A DNA stretch of 9,673 bases, taken from the NCBI GenBank assembly GCA_016200125.1, contig JACQFK010000489.1, forward strand, positions 1-9,673, given 5' to 3'. Under the pieces are notes generated by a model. It worked only from the letters and a program-made list of their open reading frames with translations. It was not told the DNA's origin and searched no databases. The translations under genes and the position numbers were made by a program. Numbering within the stretch: the first letter of the stretch is position 1; each line of letters starts with the position of its first letter. The stretch comes from Planctomycetota bacterium. GTDB lineage: Bacteria > Planctomycetota > MHYJ01 > JACPRB01. Below, in pieces: positions 2,245-7,883 of the stretch.

Positions 2245-3108
2245 CTACGGATTGCCGGTGGTCACGGGACTCCGGACGAGAGGCAGGATTCCCTCCCCTT
2301 CCGACTCCTGGGCCTGAGGATCCGGCTTGTCGCGCTGTCCCTGGCTCTCCAGGAAGCCGATCAGCTGCCCGCGCAGCCGGTAGTAGTCGGGATGCTCGAG
2401 GACCTCCTTCCGGTCCCGCGGGCGGGCGAAGGGGACGTGCAGGACGGCGCCGAGCGTCGCCGCCGGCCCGCTGGTCATCATCGCGACGCGGTCCGACAGG
2501 AACAGCGCCTCGTCCACGTCGTGGGTCACCATGAGCGCGGTCTTCCGGTCCTGCGCCCAGAGGTCGATCAGCACCTGCTGGAGCTCGAGGCGCGTCAGCG
2601 AATCGAGCATGCCGAAGGGCTCGTCGAGCAGGAGCATCTTGGGATCGAGCGCGAAGGCGCGGGCGAGCCCCACCCGCTGGCGCATGCCGGCGGAGAGTTC
2701 GGCGGGCTTCTTGTGGATGGCTTCCCCCAGGCCGACGAGCGTCAGGTACCGCTCGGCGATCAGCCGCCGCCGCGTCGTGGATTCGTCCCGCTTGACCTCC
2801 TCGACGCCGATCAGCACGTTCTCGAGCGCGGTCATCCACGGGAACAGGCAGGGCGCCTGGAAAACCACCCCGCGGTCGGGTCCCGGTCCGTCGATCTCGC
2901 GGCCCGCGAGGATGATGCCGCCGCTTGTCTTGTCATTGAGTCCGGCGACCATCGACAGGACCGTCGACTTGCCGCAGCCCGAGTGGCCGATCAGGCAGAC
3001 GAACTCGCCCTCGTGGATCTTGAGATTGAAGTCGCGGACGATCACGGCCTCTCCCGCCGGGGTCTTGTACGACTTGTGGATGTTCCAGATCTCCAGGTAG
3101 CTGTTCAT
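2245..3108 (-). CDS. nrtD: Nitrate ABC transporter ATPase, NrtD-like
   Basis: This 287-aa ABC ATPase has Walker [10 protein letters not shown] (41-49), Q-loop Gln84, signature LSAGM (138-142), Walker B MLLLDEP (158-164) and switch His196 in MVTHDVDE. The region after the core ([21 protein letters not shown]) matches the nitrate/bicarbonate (NrtD/CmpD) subfamily and makes other taurine/nitrate-type imports less likely. The signature has Ala where LSGGM is usual. The start ATG (3108) overlaps the stop of the upstream ATPase as ATGA, so the two are translationally coupled and likely form a heterodimer on the cytoplasmic face of NrtB. The C-terminal about 30 residues ([14 protein letters not shown] and on) are a low-complexity tail. 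Nitrate rather than bicarbonate is inferred from the neighbouring NarK and NrtS genes. Confidence 0.88.
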
Positions 3109-3911
3109 CGTCCCACGCTCTCCAGCATCGCCCGGCGGCGGCTTCCCCGCTCGAGAAGGAACTCCAGGATCCCGTTGCGGACTTCCTTGAAGCGGGGATC
3201 GTGGTTGAGCGCCTTCCGCTCCCGCGGCCGGGGCATGTCCACGGTCACCGACGGGCCAAGGGTGGCCCCGGGACCGGGGGTCATCGCGATGATGCGGTCC
3301 GCCAGGAGCACGCCCTCGTCCACGTCGTTGGTGATGAGGATCACGGTCTTGCGCTCTTCCTCCCAGATGCGCTCGATCTCGTCCTGCAGCGTGGCCCGCG
3401 TGAGGGCGTCGAGCGCCCCGAGCGGCTCGTCCATGAGCAGGATCTCGGGCTCCATCGCCAGCGCCCGCGCCACGGCGACGCGCTGGCGCATGCCGCCCGA
3501 CAGTTCGTGGGGCTTCCTGCTCCCCGCGGCGGCGAGCTTGACCATCTTCACGTACTTCTCCACATGCTCGCGGCGCCGCGCGGCCGGCCAGGCCGAGAAG
3601 GCCTGGTCCACGCCGAGGGCGACATTCTCGCGGACCGTCATCCAGGGGAGGAGCGAGTAGTTCTGGAACACGACGGCCCGCTCGCGGCCCGGTTCCGTGA
3701 CCGGCTTGCCGTCGAGAAGAACGCTTCCCGAGTCCGGCGCGAGCAGACCGGCGAGGATGGAGATGAGCGTCGTCTTGCCGGAGCCCGAGAAGCCGACGAT
3801 GGAGACGAACTCGCCTCGCTCGATGGACAGGTCGATGCCGCCCAGGACCTCGCTCCGCCGGCCGGCGGGCCCGAAGCCCTTCCGCACGCCCTTCAGCTCG
3901 AGAAGCGCCAT
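3105..3911 (-). CDS. nrtC: Nitrate ABC transporter ATPase, NrtC-like, without the C-terminal sensor domain
   Basis: This 268-aa ATPase has Walker [10 protein letters not shown] (40-48), Q-loop Gln83, signature LSGGM (137-141), Walker B ILLMDEP (157-163) and the post-core segment [22 protein letters not shown] typical of NrtC/CmpC. At the switch position the sequence is ITNDVDEG, so Asn195 replaces the usual His. I believe ITNDVDE occurs in other NrtC-like proteins, but cannot check. Cyanobacterial NrtC carries an additional NrtA-like C-terminal domain involved in ammonium inhibition. It is absent here, because the stop comes just after [10 protein letters not shown]. The frame stays open far upstream, but the start is ATG 3911: it shares its A with the permease stop (TGATG), and the protein begins MALLELKGV as expected. 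Confidence 0.87.
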
Positions 3912-4735
3912 CAGGCCACCTTGAAGCGGGCTTCGGCCAGGCTCATCATCCGGTCCAGCACGAAGCCGACCACGCCGATCGTCCCGATGCAAAGGATGAT
4001 GTGCTCGTAGATCAGGCTGTTGTACTCCTGCCAGAGGAAGCCGCCGACGCCGGGCGTGCCCGTGAGCATCTCGACCGCGACGATGACGAGCCACGCGATG
4101 CCGAGGCTCAGCCGGAACCCGGTGAACATGCAGGGAAGCGTCGCAGGCAGCAGGACCTTGAACAGCGTCTTGGCGCGCGAGAGCCGCAGGACGCGGGCGA
4201 CGTTCAGGTAGTCCTGCGGGATGGCGCGGACCCCGAGCGCGGTGTTGAGGACGGTGGGCCACATCGCGCAGATCGCGATCGTGAAGATCGCCGCGGGCTG
4301 CGACTTGCCGAAGATCACGAGGCCCAGCGGCAGCCAGGCCAGGGGCGAAACAGGCCGGAGGATCTGGATGATGGGATCGAAGGTCTTCGTGAAGAGCTTG
4401 GATAGCCCCAGCCAGAAGCCCAGCGGGGTTCCGATCAGGATCGCCAGCGAGTACCCCTTGGCCACCAGGACCAGCGAGTACCAGGTGAAGCGGAGGATTC
4501 CCTGGTCGAGCTCCCCCCGCTTCTCGAAAGGCGAAAGCACATAGGGCCGGCTCGTCTCCCAGGTCTTCAGGGGCGAGGGGAGGTTCTTCGACAGCGTCGC
4601 GCTCGTGATCGCCCAGAGGACGAAGATGACGCCGATGCCCGCCAGCGGAAGCAGCAGGACGTCCCAGCGAAACGTCGTGCGGATCTTTTTCCACGCAGAC
4701 GGGCCGCCGCCGCTCCGCGGTGCCTCAATCTCCAT
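3911..4735 (-). CDS. nrtB: Nitrate ABC transporter permease, NrtB-like
   Basis: This 274-aa inner-membrane protein has a first membrane segment at about 26-44 and a BPD_transp_1 core from about 85 to the end. The EAA loop that docks the ATPases is at about 175-200 ([20 protein letters not shown] and following). [14 protein letters not shown] (130-143) and the end segment [12 protein letters not shown] are typical of the nitrate/taurine permease group. Length is normal for NrtB. The ATG at 4735 lies 11 bases inside the end of nrtS, and its own stop overlaps the start of the NrtC-like ATPase by one base, so expression is coupled along the operon. It forms the membrane channel through which NrtA-bound anion is passed inward. 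Confidence 0.9.
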
Positions 4736-4978: not shown

Positions 4979-6253
4979 CTATCCCTTCACGCTCCCCACC
5001 GCGAAGCTCCGGGCATGCTCCTCGGGCTTCGCGGGATCGAAGACGGCGCCGTCGAAGAACTTCTCCGGCTCCGAGTTCGGCCCGCCGTGCGCGGCCCCGA
5101 TCTCCTTCATCGCCTCCTCGTAGAGATCCGCCCGCATGACCTGCCGGGCGACGCCCGCGTAATCCGGAGCCTCGTCCAGCATGCCCCAGCGCCGGTACTG
5201 GGTCATGAACCAGATCGCGTACTTGGCCTGCGGGTAGTTGCAGTTGCGGTCGTGGAAGATCATGTAGTTCGGATCCTTCTTCGTCCGGCCGTCGCCGAAG
5301 TCGTAGTCGCCCAGCATCCGCCCCTGGATGATCTCCTTCGGGCAGTTGATGTAGGTGGGGCGCGAGACGATCTCCGCCTGCTCGGGCCGGTTCTCCATCT
5401 GGTCGAGCCAGACGCTCGCCTCGTGGAGCGCCTTGAGGACCGCCTTCACCGTCTTGGGGTTCTTCTCCGCGAACTCGGCCGTGAAGGCGCAGACCTTCTC
5501 CGGGTGGTCCTTCCACATGTCCTGGGTGTTGAGCGACGTGAAGCCGATGTCGTCCGCGATGGAGCGGGCGTTCCAGGGCTCGCCCACGCAGAAGCCGTCC
5601 ATCTTTCCGATCTTCATGTTGGCCACCATCTGCGGGGGCGGGATCGTGATGAGCGCGACGTCCTTGTCCGGATGGATGCCCCCCGCCCCCAGGTAGTAGC
5701 GCATCCACATCGCGTGGGTGCCGGGGGGGAAGGTCATCGCGAAGGTCATGGGCGTCCCCTTCGCCTTCGCCTCGTCGACCAGCGGCTTGAGGGCCTTGGG
5801 ATCGGCCTGGACTTTGCCCTTGAGCGCCTTGGCGAGCGTGATCGACTGGCCGTTGCGGTTGAGGATCCAGGGCGCGATCATCGGCTTCTTGGGCGATCCC
5901 AGGAGGCCCAGGGTGGAGGCCAGCGGCATGCCGATCAGCATGTGGGTGCCCTGGATGTCGCCGTTCGAGAGCGCGTCGCGGATCGCCGCCCAGCTGGCGC
6001 CCTTGCTGACCGTCGAATGGATGCCGTACTTCTTGAAGAAGCCCTTCTCGTGGGCGATCACGATCGGCGAACAGTCGGTCAGCGCGATCATGCCGAACTT
6101 GAGGTCCTTCGTTTCCGGGCCGTCATTCGGCGAGAGGGTCCCCGCGGCCGTCGCCGGAGGCTCCGACTTCGACTCGCAGCCGCCCAGCAGGGCCGCTCCC
6201 GCGGCGGACGCCGACGCCCGGACGAAGTCCCGCCTTCCCCAGAGTGCCTTCAT
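4979..6253 (-). CDS. nrtA: NrtA-like nitrate-binding Tat lipoprotein
   Basis: This 424-aa solute-binding protein starts with a Tat signal (GRRDFVR, 6-12), a hydrophobic stretch and a lipobox LLGGC, so it should be exported folded and anchored through Cys26. A linker of about 25 residues (27-50) precedes the binding fold. NrtA family marks are SWAAIRD (87-93), NRNGQS (132-137), GTHAMWMRYYLGAGG (178-192), PPPQMVANMKIG (205-216) and FCVGEPWN (221-228). By eye, Trp88, Gln136, His180 and Lys253 fall where nitrate ligands of Synechocystis NrtA lie. CmpA (bicarbonate) shares most motifs, but the NarK and NrtS neighbours favour nitrate/nitrite. The start ATG 6253 overlaps the stop of the 63-aa gene as ATGA, and a longer open frame upstream is not needed. 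The Tat and lipobox signals argue against the cytosolic sensor NasS. Confidence 0.9.
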   Translation of the reverse strand: MKALWGRRDFVRASASAAGAALLGGCESKSEPPATAAGTLSPNDGPETKDLKFGMIALTDCSPIVIAHEKGFFKKYGIHSTVSKGASWAAIRDALSNGDIQGTHMLIGMPLASTLGLLGSPKKPMIAPWILNRNGQSITLAKALKGKVQADPKALKPLVDEAKAKGTPMTFAMTFPPGTHAMWMRYYLGAGGIHPDKDVALITIPPPQMVANMKIGKMDGFCVGEPWNARSIADDIGFTSLNTQDMWKDHPEKVCAFTAEFAEKNPKTVKAVLKALHEASVWLDQMENRPEQAEIVSRPTYINCPKEIIQGRMLGDYDFGDGRTKKDPNYMIFHDRNCNYPQAKYAIWFMTQYRRWGMLDEAPDYAGVARQVMRADLYEEAMKEIGAAHGGPNSEPEKFFDGAVFDPAKPEEHARSFAVGSVKG

Positions 6254-6441
6254 CGATGCTTCTCCTCTCGCGACGCGAAGATCGCCTGCAGAGGACGCTC
6301 CTCGGCCGAGGGGCCCTGCAGGCAGAGAAAGAGGACGAACTGGAGCAGCGCCTCGACCACGATCACGATGAGTGCGACGAAGAGGACCTCCTGCCAGTCG
6401 GTCCCCGACGATCCGCGCTGTTCCGCCGCCCGTCCGTCCAT
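6250..6441 (-). CDS. 63-aa single-span membrane protein, first gene of the nrt operon, family unknown
   Basis: ATG 6441 has GGAG nine bases upstream, only about ten bases after the attenuator T-tract. The 63-aa product has a polar N-terminus (MDGRAAEQRGSSGTD), one strongly hydrophobic helix at about 18-41 (EVLFVALIVIVVEALLQFVL and following) with a Glu inside it, and a charged tail with SAEERP and SREEKHR. Its TGA overlaps the nrtA start as ATGA, a translational coupling that supports it as a real gene. I do not recognise the family. Possible roles are a membrane partner of the transporter, a regulator of its activity, or a short ORF whose translation opens the nrtA start. Frame choice and coupling are seen; function is unknown. 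Confidence 0.7.
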   Translation of the reverse strand: MDGRAAEQRGSSGTDWQEVLFVALIVIVVEALLQFVLFLCLQGPSAEERPLQAIFASREEKHR

Positions 6442-6450
6442 GACTTCGCT

Positions 6451-6490
6451 CCAAAGAAAAAGCCGGCATTCCTTCCCGGAATGCCGGCTT
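6451..6490 (-). terminator. Intrinsic terminator/attenuator before the nrt operon
   Basis: A perfect 13-bp stem (6460-6472 with 6478-6490) with a 5-base loop is followed on the minus strand by TTTTTCTTT (down to 6452). The A-rich side is toward the nrt genes, so it terminates minus-strand transcription only. It lies 53 bases after the narK stop and 10 bases before the start of the 63-aa gene. It could simply end narK transcription, but the near-identical copy before narK points to a regulated attenuator. Confidence 0.85.
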
Positions 6491-6513
6491 GAGTCCGTGT
6501 TGGCTCCGTGCCG
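6491..6513 (-). promoter_or_regulatory. Conserved leader element upstream of the nrt attenuator
   Basis: On the minus strand the 23 bases starting CGGCACGGAGCCAACACG and ending ACTC precede the terminator stem without a gap. They match the element before narK (7832-7854) at all but one position. The element can form a small GGC-ACGGA-GCC hairpin. Its first CGGC could instead pair with GCCG in the 5' arm of the terminator, giving a possible antiterminator. No sigma-54 site is visible immediately upstream, so transcription may arrive by read-through from narK or from a promoter I cannot see. Confidence 0.6.
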
Positions 6514-6542
6514 ACCGAGTCGCCCGCCGCTCCTGGCTCAGC

Positions 6543-7778
6543 TCATTCGTTCCCCGCCGCCGCCGGGGCCGCGCTCATGGCCGCCGCCGGGGTCTCGGGC
6601 AAGAGCGATTCGAGCCACTTCCGGCGCTGGATCATAAGGACCGCCGTGCAGGCGGCGCCGGCCAGCGCGAGCAGGAGGAAGCCCGTCGCAAAGCTTCCCG
6701 TCGATCCCTTGAGCAGCCCCAGCACGTTGGGCAGGAGGAAGCCTCCCAGCCCGCCCGCCGCGCCGATCAGGCCCGTGGCGACGCCGATCTCCTTCCGGAA
6801 TCGCTGGGGGACCAGCTGGAACACCGAGCCGTTCCCCAGGCCGAGCGTTCCCATGGCGGCGATGATCAGCGGCATCGCGACCGCCAGCGGCGGCAGCAGC
6901 GCCATTCCCGCCAGGCAGCAGGCGCTGAAGGCCAGGAGGACGGTCAGCACCCGCACGCCACCGAACTTGTCCGAGAGGAAGCCGCCGACGGGGCGCATGA
7001 AGCTCCCCGAGAAGACGCAGAGCGCCGCCAGCGTGCCGGCGGCGACCTTCGAAACGCCGTACTGGTCGTGGAAGAAGATGACGAGGAAGCTCGCGAGTCC
7101 CACGAAGCCGCCGAAGGTGAAGCTGTAGAGCAGGCTGAACCAGCCCGTGTCGCGCTCCCGCAGGATCGCGAAGTAGGCCTTGAGCGGCTTCGGGGCGGGC
7201 TGGCTCGGGCTCTCCTTGGCGAACAGGACGAAAAGTGCCAGCACGACGGAGACGGGGATCAGCGCCAGTCCGAACACGGCGTGCCATCCGAAGGCTTCGG
7301 CCAGGCGAGGCGCGAAGAGCGCCGCCAGCACCGTGCCGCTGTTGCCGGCGCCCGCGATGCCCATCGCCAGCCCCTGGTGCTCCGCCGGATACCAGCGGCT
7401 CGCCAACGGCAGCGCCACCGCGAAGCTGCCGCCCGCGATGCCCAGCAGGAAGCCCAGCCCCAGGACCTGGGAGAAGTCCGCGCCCCCCTTCCAGGCCCAG
7501 AGGAGCGGCAGGAGGATCAGGAGCTGCCCCAGGATCCCCGTCTTCTTGGGGCCGATGCGGTCGACGAGCAGGCCCATCGGCAGCCTGGCCAGCGATCCGC
7601 CCAGGATCGGCAGCGCCGCCATGAGCCCCTTCTGCGCCGGACTGAGGTTGAAGTCCTTCGAGATGTAGACCCCGAGGACGCCCAGGAGGACCCAGACCAT
7701 GAAGCTCACGTCAAAGTACAGGAAGGACATCAACAGGGTCGGCCAGTGTCCGCTCCGGGTGAAGGCTTTCAGCTGCAT
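6543..7778 (-). CDS. narK: NarK/NasA-type nitrate/nitrite MFS transporter
   Basis: This 411-aa, 12-helix inner-membrane carrier belongs to the nitrate/nitrite porter (NNP) family. Visible signatures are GIAGAGNSG (140-148) in TM5 and GLIGAAGGLGG (336-346) in TM11. Two membrane Arg that fit the anion-binding pair of NarK are Arg65 (GGSLARLPMG) and Arg262 (FMRPVGGF). LGNGSVFQLVP (314-324) is also family-like. The frame opens at a TTG at 7799, but the start is ATG 7778: GAGGGGAG lies just before it and the TTG falls in the terminator T-tract. Its length and single 12-TM unit suit an assimilatory NasA-like or a NarK2-like carrier; uptake versus nitrate/nitrite exchange cannot be told. The C-terminus is an Ala/Pro-rich tail. 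Confidence 0.92.
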   Translation of the reverse strand: MQLKAFTRSGHWPTLLMSFLYFDVSFMVWVLLGVLGVYISKDFNLSPAQKGLMAALPILGGSLARLPMGLLVDRIGPKKTGILGQLLILLPLLWAWKGGADFSQVLGLGFLLGIAGGSFAVALPLASRWYPAEHQGLAMGIAGAGNSGTVLAALFAPRLAEAFGWHAVFGLALIPVSVVLALFVLFAKESPSQPAPKPLKAYFAILRERDTGWFSLLYSFTFGGFVGLASFLVIFFHDQYGVSKVAAGTLAALCVFSGSFMRPVGGFLSDKFGGVRVLTVLLAFSACCLAGMALLPPLAVAMPLIIAAMGTLGLGNGSVFQLVPQRFRKEIGVATGLIGAAGGLGGFLLPNVLGLLKGSTGSFATGFLLLALAGAACTAVLMIQRRKWLESLLPETPAAAMSAAPAAAGNE

Positions 7779-7792
7779 CTCTCCCCTCGCTT

Positions 7793-7831
7793 GAAACAAA
7801 AAAGCCGGCAGTCCTTTCGGATTGCCGGCTT
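7793..7831 (-). terminator. Intrinsic terminator/attenuator in the narK leader
   Basis: A 13-position stem (7802-7814 with 7819-7831) with one A-C mismatch on the minus strand and a GAAA tetraloop is followed by TTTTTTGTTT. It sits between a promoter and the narK ribosome-binding site, ending about 15 bases before the ATG. It would stop transcription before narK unless relieved. It shares its outer nine base pairs and upstream element with the terminator at 6451-6490. Confidence 0.87.
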
Positions 7832-7857
7832 GAGTTCGTGTTGGCTCCGTGCCGCTG
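7832..7857 (-). promoter_or_regulatory. Conserved 5' leader element of narK
   Basis: Minus-strand bases 7854 to 7832 repeat the nrt leader element with a single change (A for G near the end). The predicted sigma-54 transcription start (about 7857-7856) falls two to three bases before it, so it would be the very 5' end of the narK mRNA. It can form the same short GGC-ACGGA-GCC hairpin. A GC-GGC stretch can alternatively pair, with a bulge, to GCCGGC of the terminator arm. It is a candidate binding site for an RNA-binding antiterminator. Confidence 0.6.
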
Positions 7858-7868
7858 GGAGGACAAGC

Positions 7869-7883
7869 GCAAGCGCCGTGCCA
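7869..7883 (-). promoter_or_regulatory. Sigma-54 (RpoN) -24/-12 promoter for narK
   Basis: The minus strand reads TGGCAC-GGCGC-TTGC (7883 to 7869), matching the consensus TGGCACG-N4-TTGC at every fixed base. GG is at -24 and GC at -12 with the required spacing; only the following W position (G here) departs. Start of transcription is expected near 7857, giving a 5' UTR of about 79 bases. Sigma-54 promoters need an enhancer-binding activator such as NtrC, which fits nitrogen-limitation control. Confidence 0.78.

Follow-up and report, generated by a model that had tools for sequence, protein, structure and literature searches.

A stretch of 9,673 nt from a Planctomycetota bacterium (the window) carries two related leaders, one before the nitrate/nitrite transporter gene narK and one before the nrt operon, which probably act as conditional attenuators of transcription within a regulon for nitrate assimilation. 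Each leader joins a conserved 29-nt element to an intrinsic terminator. All five strong copies of this arrangement lie upstream of nitrate-assimilation genes (narK twice, nrt, nirB and a Rieske/nitrite-reductase fusion). They come from three organisms, that of the window and two whose genomes are referred to here as G216 and G296, the latter two belonging to one class.

According to gene calls and Pfam, the minus strand of the window encodes a TPR protein, narK, the nrt operon and an alginate-export-type porin (2199-823). Of 47 hits to the TPR protein, four come with an organism name, and all four of these are Planctomycetota. The narK gene (6543..7778, within an ORF from 7799) matches Pfam MFS_1 and reaches 306 bits with TIGR00886, slightly below the cut-off of 311.7. 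It is followed by a 63-aa ORF with a hydrophobic stretch (6250..6441), which overlaps the start of nrtA by ATGA; this ORF had no NCBIfam match and in Pfam matched DUF4577 alone, below cut-off. The nrtA-like gene for a nitrate-binding protein (4979..6253, Pfam NMT1_2) has relatives named nitrate/nitrite transport binding protein, and the permease and two ATPases of the operon span 2245..4735 (BPD_transp_1 and ABC_tran twice). A second small ORF with a hydrophobic stretch is located at about 4976-4725, so that two such ORFs flank nrtA; a small membrane-type ORF is also found 5' of narK in G216 (L108, about 15080-15281). On the opposite strand from the nitrate genes, positions 1-660 encode the C-terminal part of a CobW-type protein, the rest being cut off by the contig end. 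A match to snoU89 (Rfam) inside nrtA (5782-5732, minus strand; E 0.0047, below the gathering score) is probably an artefact.

The narK copy of the element occupies 7826..7854 of the minus strand, at +4 of the predicted transcription start (covariance model match 7860-7794, 86.6 bits, for what is a training sequence). Its terminator stem at 7802..7831, obtained by folding and by the covariance model, runs into a T-tract extending to 7794. The nrt copy (6485..6513, minus strand; match 6519-6452, 87.3 bits, likewise a training sequence) starts 29 nt past the narK stop codon, and its stem at 6460..6490, found by folding, the covariance model and a terminator scan, is followed by a T-tract to about 6453. 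The original prediction, made from the sequence alone, had placed both leaders correctly: from CGGCACGG to TCC they align without gaps over 36 bases and differ at two positions (GAACTC/GGACTC and AATCC/ATTCC), and each has a terminator hairpin and T-tract. Its statement that each terminator stands just before the start codon of a nitrate-transport gene applies to narK, with the ATG corrected to 7778, but not to nrtA itself: the ATG behind the second leader, at 6441, is that of the 63-aa ORF, and the leader thus precedes the nrt operon as a whole. The T-tracts end 15 nt (narK) and 11 nt (nrt) before the respective ATG.

With z scores of -3.9 and -4.5, the leaders, taken as 68 and 70 nt, fold better than any of 200 shuffled versions, owing to the terminators. 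Longer stretches are less clear, the 143-nt narK region being equalled by 17 and the 95-nt nrt region by one of 200 shuffles. The 17-mer GGCACGGAGCCAACACG has its two sites in the window and none further at up to three mismatches, and two such matches arose in only one of 200 shuffles. A generic terminator scan reported six sites in the window, compared with a shuffle mean of 4.1; the nrt-leader terminator is among them, the narK-leader terminator, whose stem contains an A/C mismatch, is not. Searching the window against Rfam at E values up to 5 gave seven matches, none over its gathering score and none in either leader.

Searching 392 Planctomycetota genomes for the TPR protein gave a single match, in G296. 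When 23 genomes of the G296 class were scanned with a pattern, the element turned up ahead of narK in G296 and, in G216, ahead of the Rieske/nitrite-reductase fusion. The latter gene (L108:7094-10801, plus strand) encodes 1,235 aa with two Rieske domains, nitrite/sulphite reductase halves, and rubredoxin-like and NAD(P)H reductase domains. A covariance model built from these two copies and those of the window (R1) detected a copy outside its training set in G296, ahead of a nirB gene of full length, downstream of which a nasA-type gene begins. This copy scored 52.6 bits, whereas the next-best match among the 23 genomes had 29.7 bits. Among the weaker matches, those at 27.2 and 24.2 bits were read, and both are terminators at gene ends. 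In the former (L136:640-760, G296), GAACCTCAAGCC precedes the stem of a terminator before an mreB-like gene and resembles the element in part. The search of relatives thus added three copies to those of the window, all before nitrate-assimilation genes, and in neither G216 nor G296 does the element follow many unrelated genes in the role of a simple terminator, the distribution that the original prediction had named as speaking against regulated attenuation.

A five-copy model (R2) at E 1e-5 matched two of the 392 Planctomycetota genomes, both already known (G216 and G296), as well as five of 337 Verrucomicrobiota and two of 329 Myxococcota genomes; all seven matches in these 666 genomes are terminators without the element. 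The R2 searches used stricter filters, with only 13-15 candidates scored per genome, so that weak copies may escape. With up to three mismatches allowed, the 17-mer occurs at 12 places in 80 GTDB loci that surround relatives of nrtA (NrtA 67-81% identical), and by eye none of these places then shows the ACTCAAGCC-terminator part; the analysis covered the upstream regions of 34 of these loci. At up to two mismatches, the 17-mer is found at 12 places in eight of the 23 class genomes, two of them being the leaders, and a reversed control pattern gives scattered matches too. The exact element pattern did not occur in viral contigs. Within the genomes searched, the element therefore appears limited to one Planctomycetota class and the window. 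Not every narK is accompanied by it: the G216 gene, far along an operon, lacks a separate leader, as do the narK relatives in the genomes G227 and G305 (47% and 40% identical). NrtA was found in neither G216 nor G296, in a search without positive control.

By sequence comparison, the conservation centres on the element. The copies are 91% identical within the 29 nt, compared with 29% in the 60 nt upstream and 46% in the next 12 nt, and across the five copies the element is conserved almost throughout. The original prediction had suggested that the conserved element pairs with the terminator arm as an antiterminator. Such a hairpin, built from the pairings CGGC/GCCG and GAG/CTC around an internal loop ACG/AA and with a 10-nt apical loop, can form in all five copies and is mutually exclusive with the terminator. 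The isolated element favours this hairpin, with a probability of 0.65-0.99 for the inner pair of its outer helix; in the G296 narK copy an alternative fold draws level with it. The antiterminator hairpin is nevertheless a proposal, because its pairs never vary among the five copies, so that covariation is absent, and because its stability is within the shuffle range (z -0.1 to -2.0). The terminator, in turn, is preserved despite two-sided changes at three pairs, a result reached by 35 of 500 shuffles. A further small hairpin, GGC[ACGGA]GCC, competes with the antiterminator hairpin and has no overlap with the terminator.

The invariance of the internal-loop bases and the nearly full-length conservation of the 29 nt would also fit an element that is itself a very small ligand-sensing RNA, responding to nitrate, nitrite or a nitrogen metabolite; a large sensor would not fit the leader. 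Glutamine-sensing RNAs exist. Since the element is very small for an aptamer and the leaders lack any Rfam match at E values up to 5, we regard this as highly improbable.

The only match in the window to a strict sigma54 promoter pattern (TGGCA[CT]N5TTGC; 0.005 expected per window in Markov-shuffled sequence) is TGGCACGGCGCTTGC at 7869..7883 on the minus strand, with a predicted start at about 7857. Both narK leaders, in the window and in G296, lie behind a TGGCAC-N5-TTGC match, and their element begins at about +4/+6 of the predicted start. As this start would lie 3-5 nt upstream of the element, the narK terminator is predicted to be inside narK's own transcript. Given the predicted start, the narK leaders have no space for an upstream hairpin or a leader peptide. 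On the same assumption, the window narK leader contains no ATG, GTG or TTG between start and terminator; the G296 narK copy contains a TTG that is not kept in the other copies. In G296, another strict sigma54 match (L107:8297, plus strand) is located upstream of the gene for an alginate-export-type porin in the vicinity of narK. The nir leaders of G216 and G296 begin some 40 nt downstream of a 65-aa orphan gene that is itself behind a sigma54 match. A gene for a GAF-sigma54 activator is found nearby in G296 and, judged by eye, in G216 too.

This placement bears on another explanation, namely that the leaders are plain terminators without regulation, similar by descent or chance. Terminators with a partly similar approach do exist, as the site before the mreB-like gene illustrates, but a position right behind sigma54 matches, conservation beyond the stem and the association with nitrate genes in five of five cases speak against this explanation, which we consider quite unlikely. 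Regulated attenuation, as originally proposed, is well supported on comparative grounds by the same association and by the promoter matches before the narK copies; the lack of covariation in the antiterminator pairs counts against it. Default termination with factor-dependent read-through is the economical reading, because a promoter directly before a terminator is useless unless termination is conditional, and because the conserved bases sit upstream of the terminator apex.

For this attenuation we propose the following course, in which antitermination, its signal and its factor are what we infer. RNA polymerase would start narK at the predicted sigma54 promoter and transcribe the element within the first 35 or so nucleotides. 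By default, it would stop at the terminator. Under inducing conditions, a factor acting in trans would hold the element in the CGGC/GCCG plus GAG/CTC hairpin, which would take the 5' arm of the terminator and thereby permit read-through. The factor would most likely be a protein that binds RNA and responds to nitrate/nitrite or to nitrogen status. The nrt copy would act as an internal attenuator, i.e. a second checkpoint in the same transcript for polymerases that have passed narK.

Proteins with an ANTAR domain are candidates for such a factor. ANTAR targets are paired hairpins whose hexaloops carry A1 and G4, as described in PMC3369931, PMC7496416 and PMC8934654. No AnnGnn hexaloop is common to the five leaders, and four of them have none at all on at least three pairs; the L108 leader of G216 has two, neither conserved in the other four. 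The same scan scored the control sequences, finding GGC[AAAGGC]GCC once in each glnA leader (G216 and G296) and two hexaloops in L029. The leaders are thus, by their sequences, not canonical ANTAR targets, which bears out the doubt expressed from the start about fitting a double hexaloop hairpin. In L029 itself, a gammaproteobacterial leader with two AnnGnn hexaloops lies between an ANTAR gene and nrtA, which is an arrangement of the NasT type.

Both leader-bearing genomes other than that of the window, G216 and G296, nonetheless have an ANTAR gene over cut-off, a check that the original prediction had proposed. None of 14 control genomes was positive, but the genomes of the NasT-type loci L015 and L029 matched. 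Only 38 of the 392 Planctomycetota genomes have such a gene, so that the chance of finding it in two of two leader genomes would be about 0.009, by an arithmetic that ignores kinship. In both genomes the sole ANTAR protein found is a REC-ANTAR adjoining glnA, with the REC-ANTAR gene, a HisKA_2 kinase and glnA in a row (L106:4837-7381 and approximately L105:4445-7000, both minus strand); the domains were profile-tested in G296 and read from the sequence in G216. Among 35 ANTAR loci checked crudely by motif, only L100 and L101, which belong to these two genomes, showed the kinase and the glnA signature together. In both genomes, glnA has a short leader in which GGC[AAAGGC]GCC overlaps a terminator. 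The response regulator encoded close to the nir cluster of G296 was rejected as an ANTAR protein, being REC-DUF4388.

It is conceivable, if on balance rather unlikely, that the REC-ANTAR protein reads the C[ACGGA]G loop of the small hairpin, or the element in some other way, and so prevents termination. Though this loop has five bases, it combines A at position 1 and G at position 4 with a C:G closing pair, and C, A1, G4 and G are invariant in the five copies. G227 and G305, whose narK genes are without the leader, are also without ANTAR. The hexaloop scan argues against such a target, as does the small hairpin itself, which loses one pair in the nirB copy, misses the terminator and reaches a probability of 0 to 0.35 in the isolated element. 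In Bradyrhizobium, a clear NasT hairpin is missing from most NasT-dependent genes according to PMC6759348, and an unusual or indirect ANTAR role is therefore possible. A survey of sigma54 reports predicted sigma54 promoters on ANTAR genes mainly of beta- and gammaproteobacteria (PMC12316311). A non-canonical ANTAR reader would specify, not replace, the attenuator reading.

Alternatively, a non-ANTAR factor may bind the element, for example the product of the orphan gene between the sigma54-type site and the nir attenuator (65 aa, L131:1801-1604, minus strand; 63 aa, L108:6782-6973, plus strand). Lying 5' of the nir leader in both genomes, this gene would yield its product before read-through. 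The protein belongs to no known family, however, and is not encoded beside the window leaders, and its AlphaFold model is weak (mean pLDDT 71, pTM 0.36). We think a non-ANTAR factor of this kind improbable. The orphan has four matches in the databases; as one of them has the query's own sequence, this leaves three relatives. One of the four probably lies on the same contig as the NrtA relative P0118, the listed length being 52,629 in both cases. A fold search returned 19 matches up to E 10, with no solved structure at E 0.001.

In the BglG/SacY/LicT systems, a hairpin of about 29 nt with an internal loop overlaps the 5' arm of a terminator. The proposed antiterminator hairpin would resemble these targets by architecture, in hairpin size, internal loop and terminator overlap, but a CAT_RBD protein was found in neither G216 nor G296, while the control matched in four of 14; a system of this kind (RAT) was accordingly rejected.

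The attenuator reading has its closest functional parallels in known nitrate and ethanolamine systems. As in Klebsiella oxytoca nasF, the parallel drawn originally, Ntr-regulated initiation would be combined with a terminator before nitrate-assimilation genes that a factor relieves (PMC5424462, PMC7496416). This logic of nitrogen-regulated initiation plus antitermination holds, but the dual hexaloop does not: NasR, a NIT-ANTAR protein whose gene belongs to the Klebsiella system, binds two A1/G4 hexaloop hairpins, whereas no such hexaloop is shared by the present leaders and no NasR-type gene was seen here. The NasS-NasT leaders of Paracoccus, Bradyrhizobium and Azotobacter likewise place terminators before nitrate and nitrite genes (PMC5424462, PMC6759348); the present leaders differ by having no hexaloop pair and no NasS-NasT pair near them. 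One regulator serving several attenuators along one pathway, with a REC-ANTAR protein and a kinase, is found in Enterococcus eut/EutV (PMC3369931, PMC8934654), there with dual hexaloops and for ethanolamine. A leader such as ours was not found for Planctomycetota in the open-access literature searched, subscription papers being mostly outside its coverage.

Whether the element constitutes a new 29-nt antiterminator class for a Planctomycetota nitrate regulon, with a non-hexaloop reader and alongside a separate hexaloop ANTAR-type glnA switch, seems to us finely balanced, leaning slightly to the negative. If it does, ANTAR proteins must recognise more than hexaloops, unless there is a different antiterminator, a question that a leader of about 65 nt makes testable in vitro with RNA polymerase and the two candidate proteins. 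The two-step control of nitrate genes, by sigma54 at initiation and then by antitermination, would then reach an uncultured class of Planctomycetota, by way of a different RNA element.
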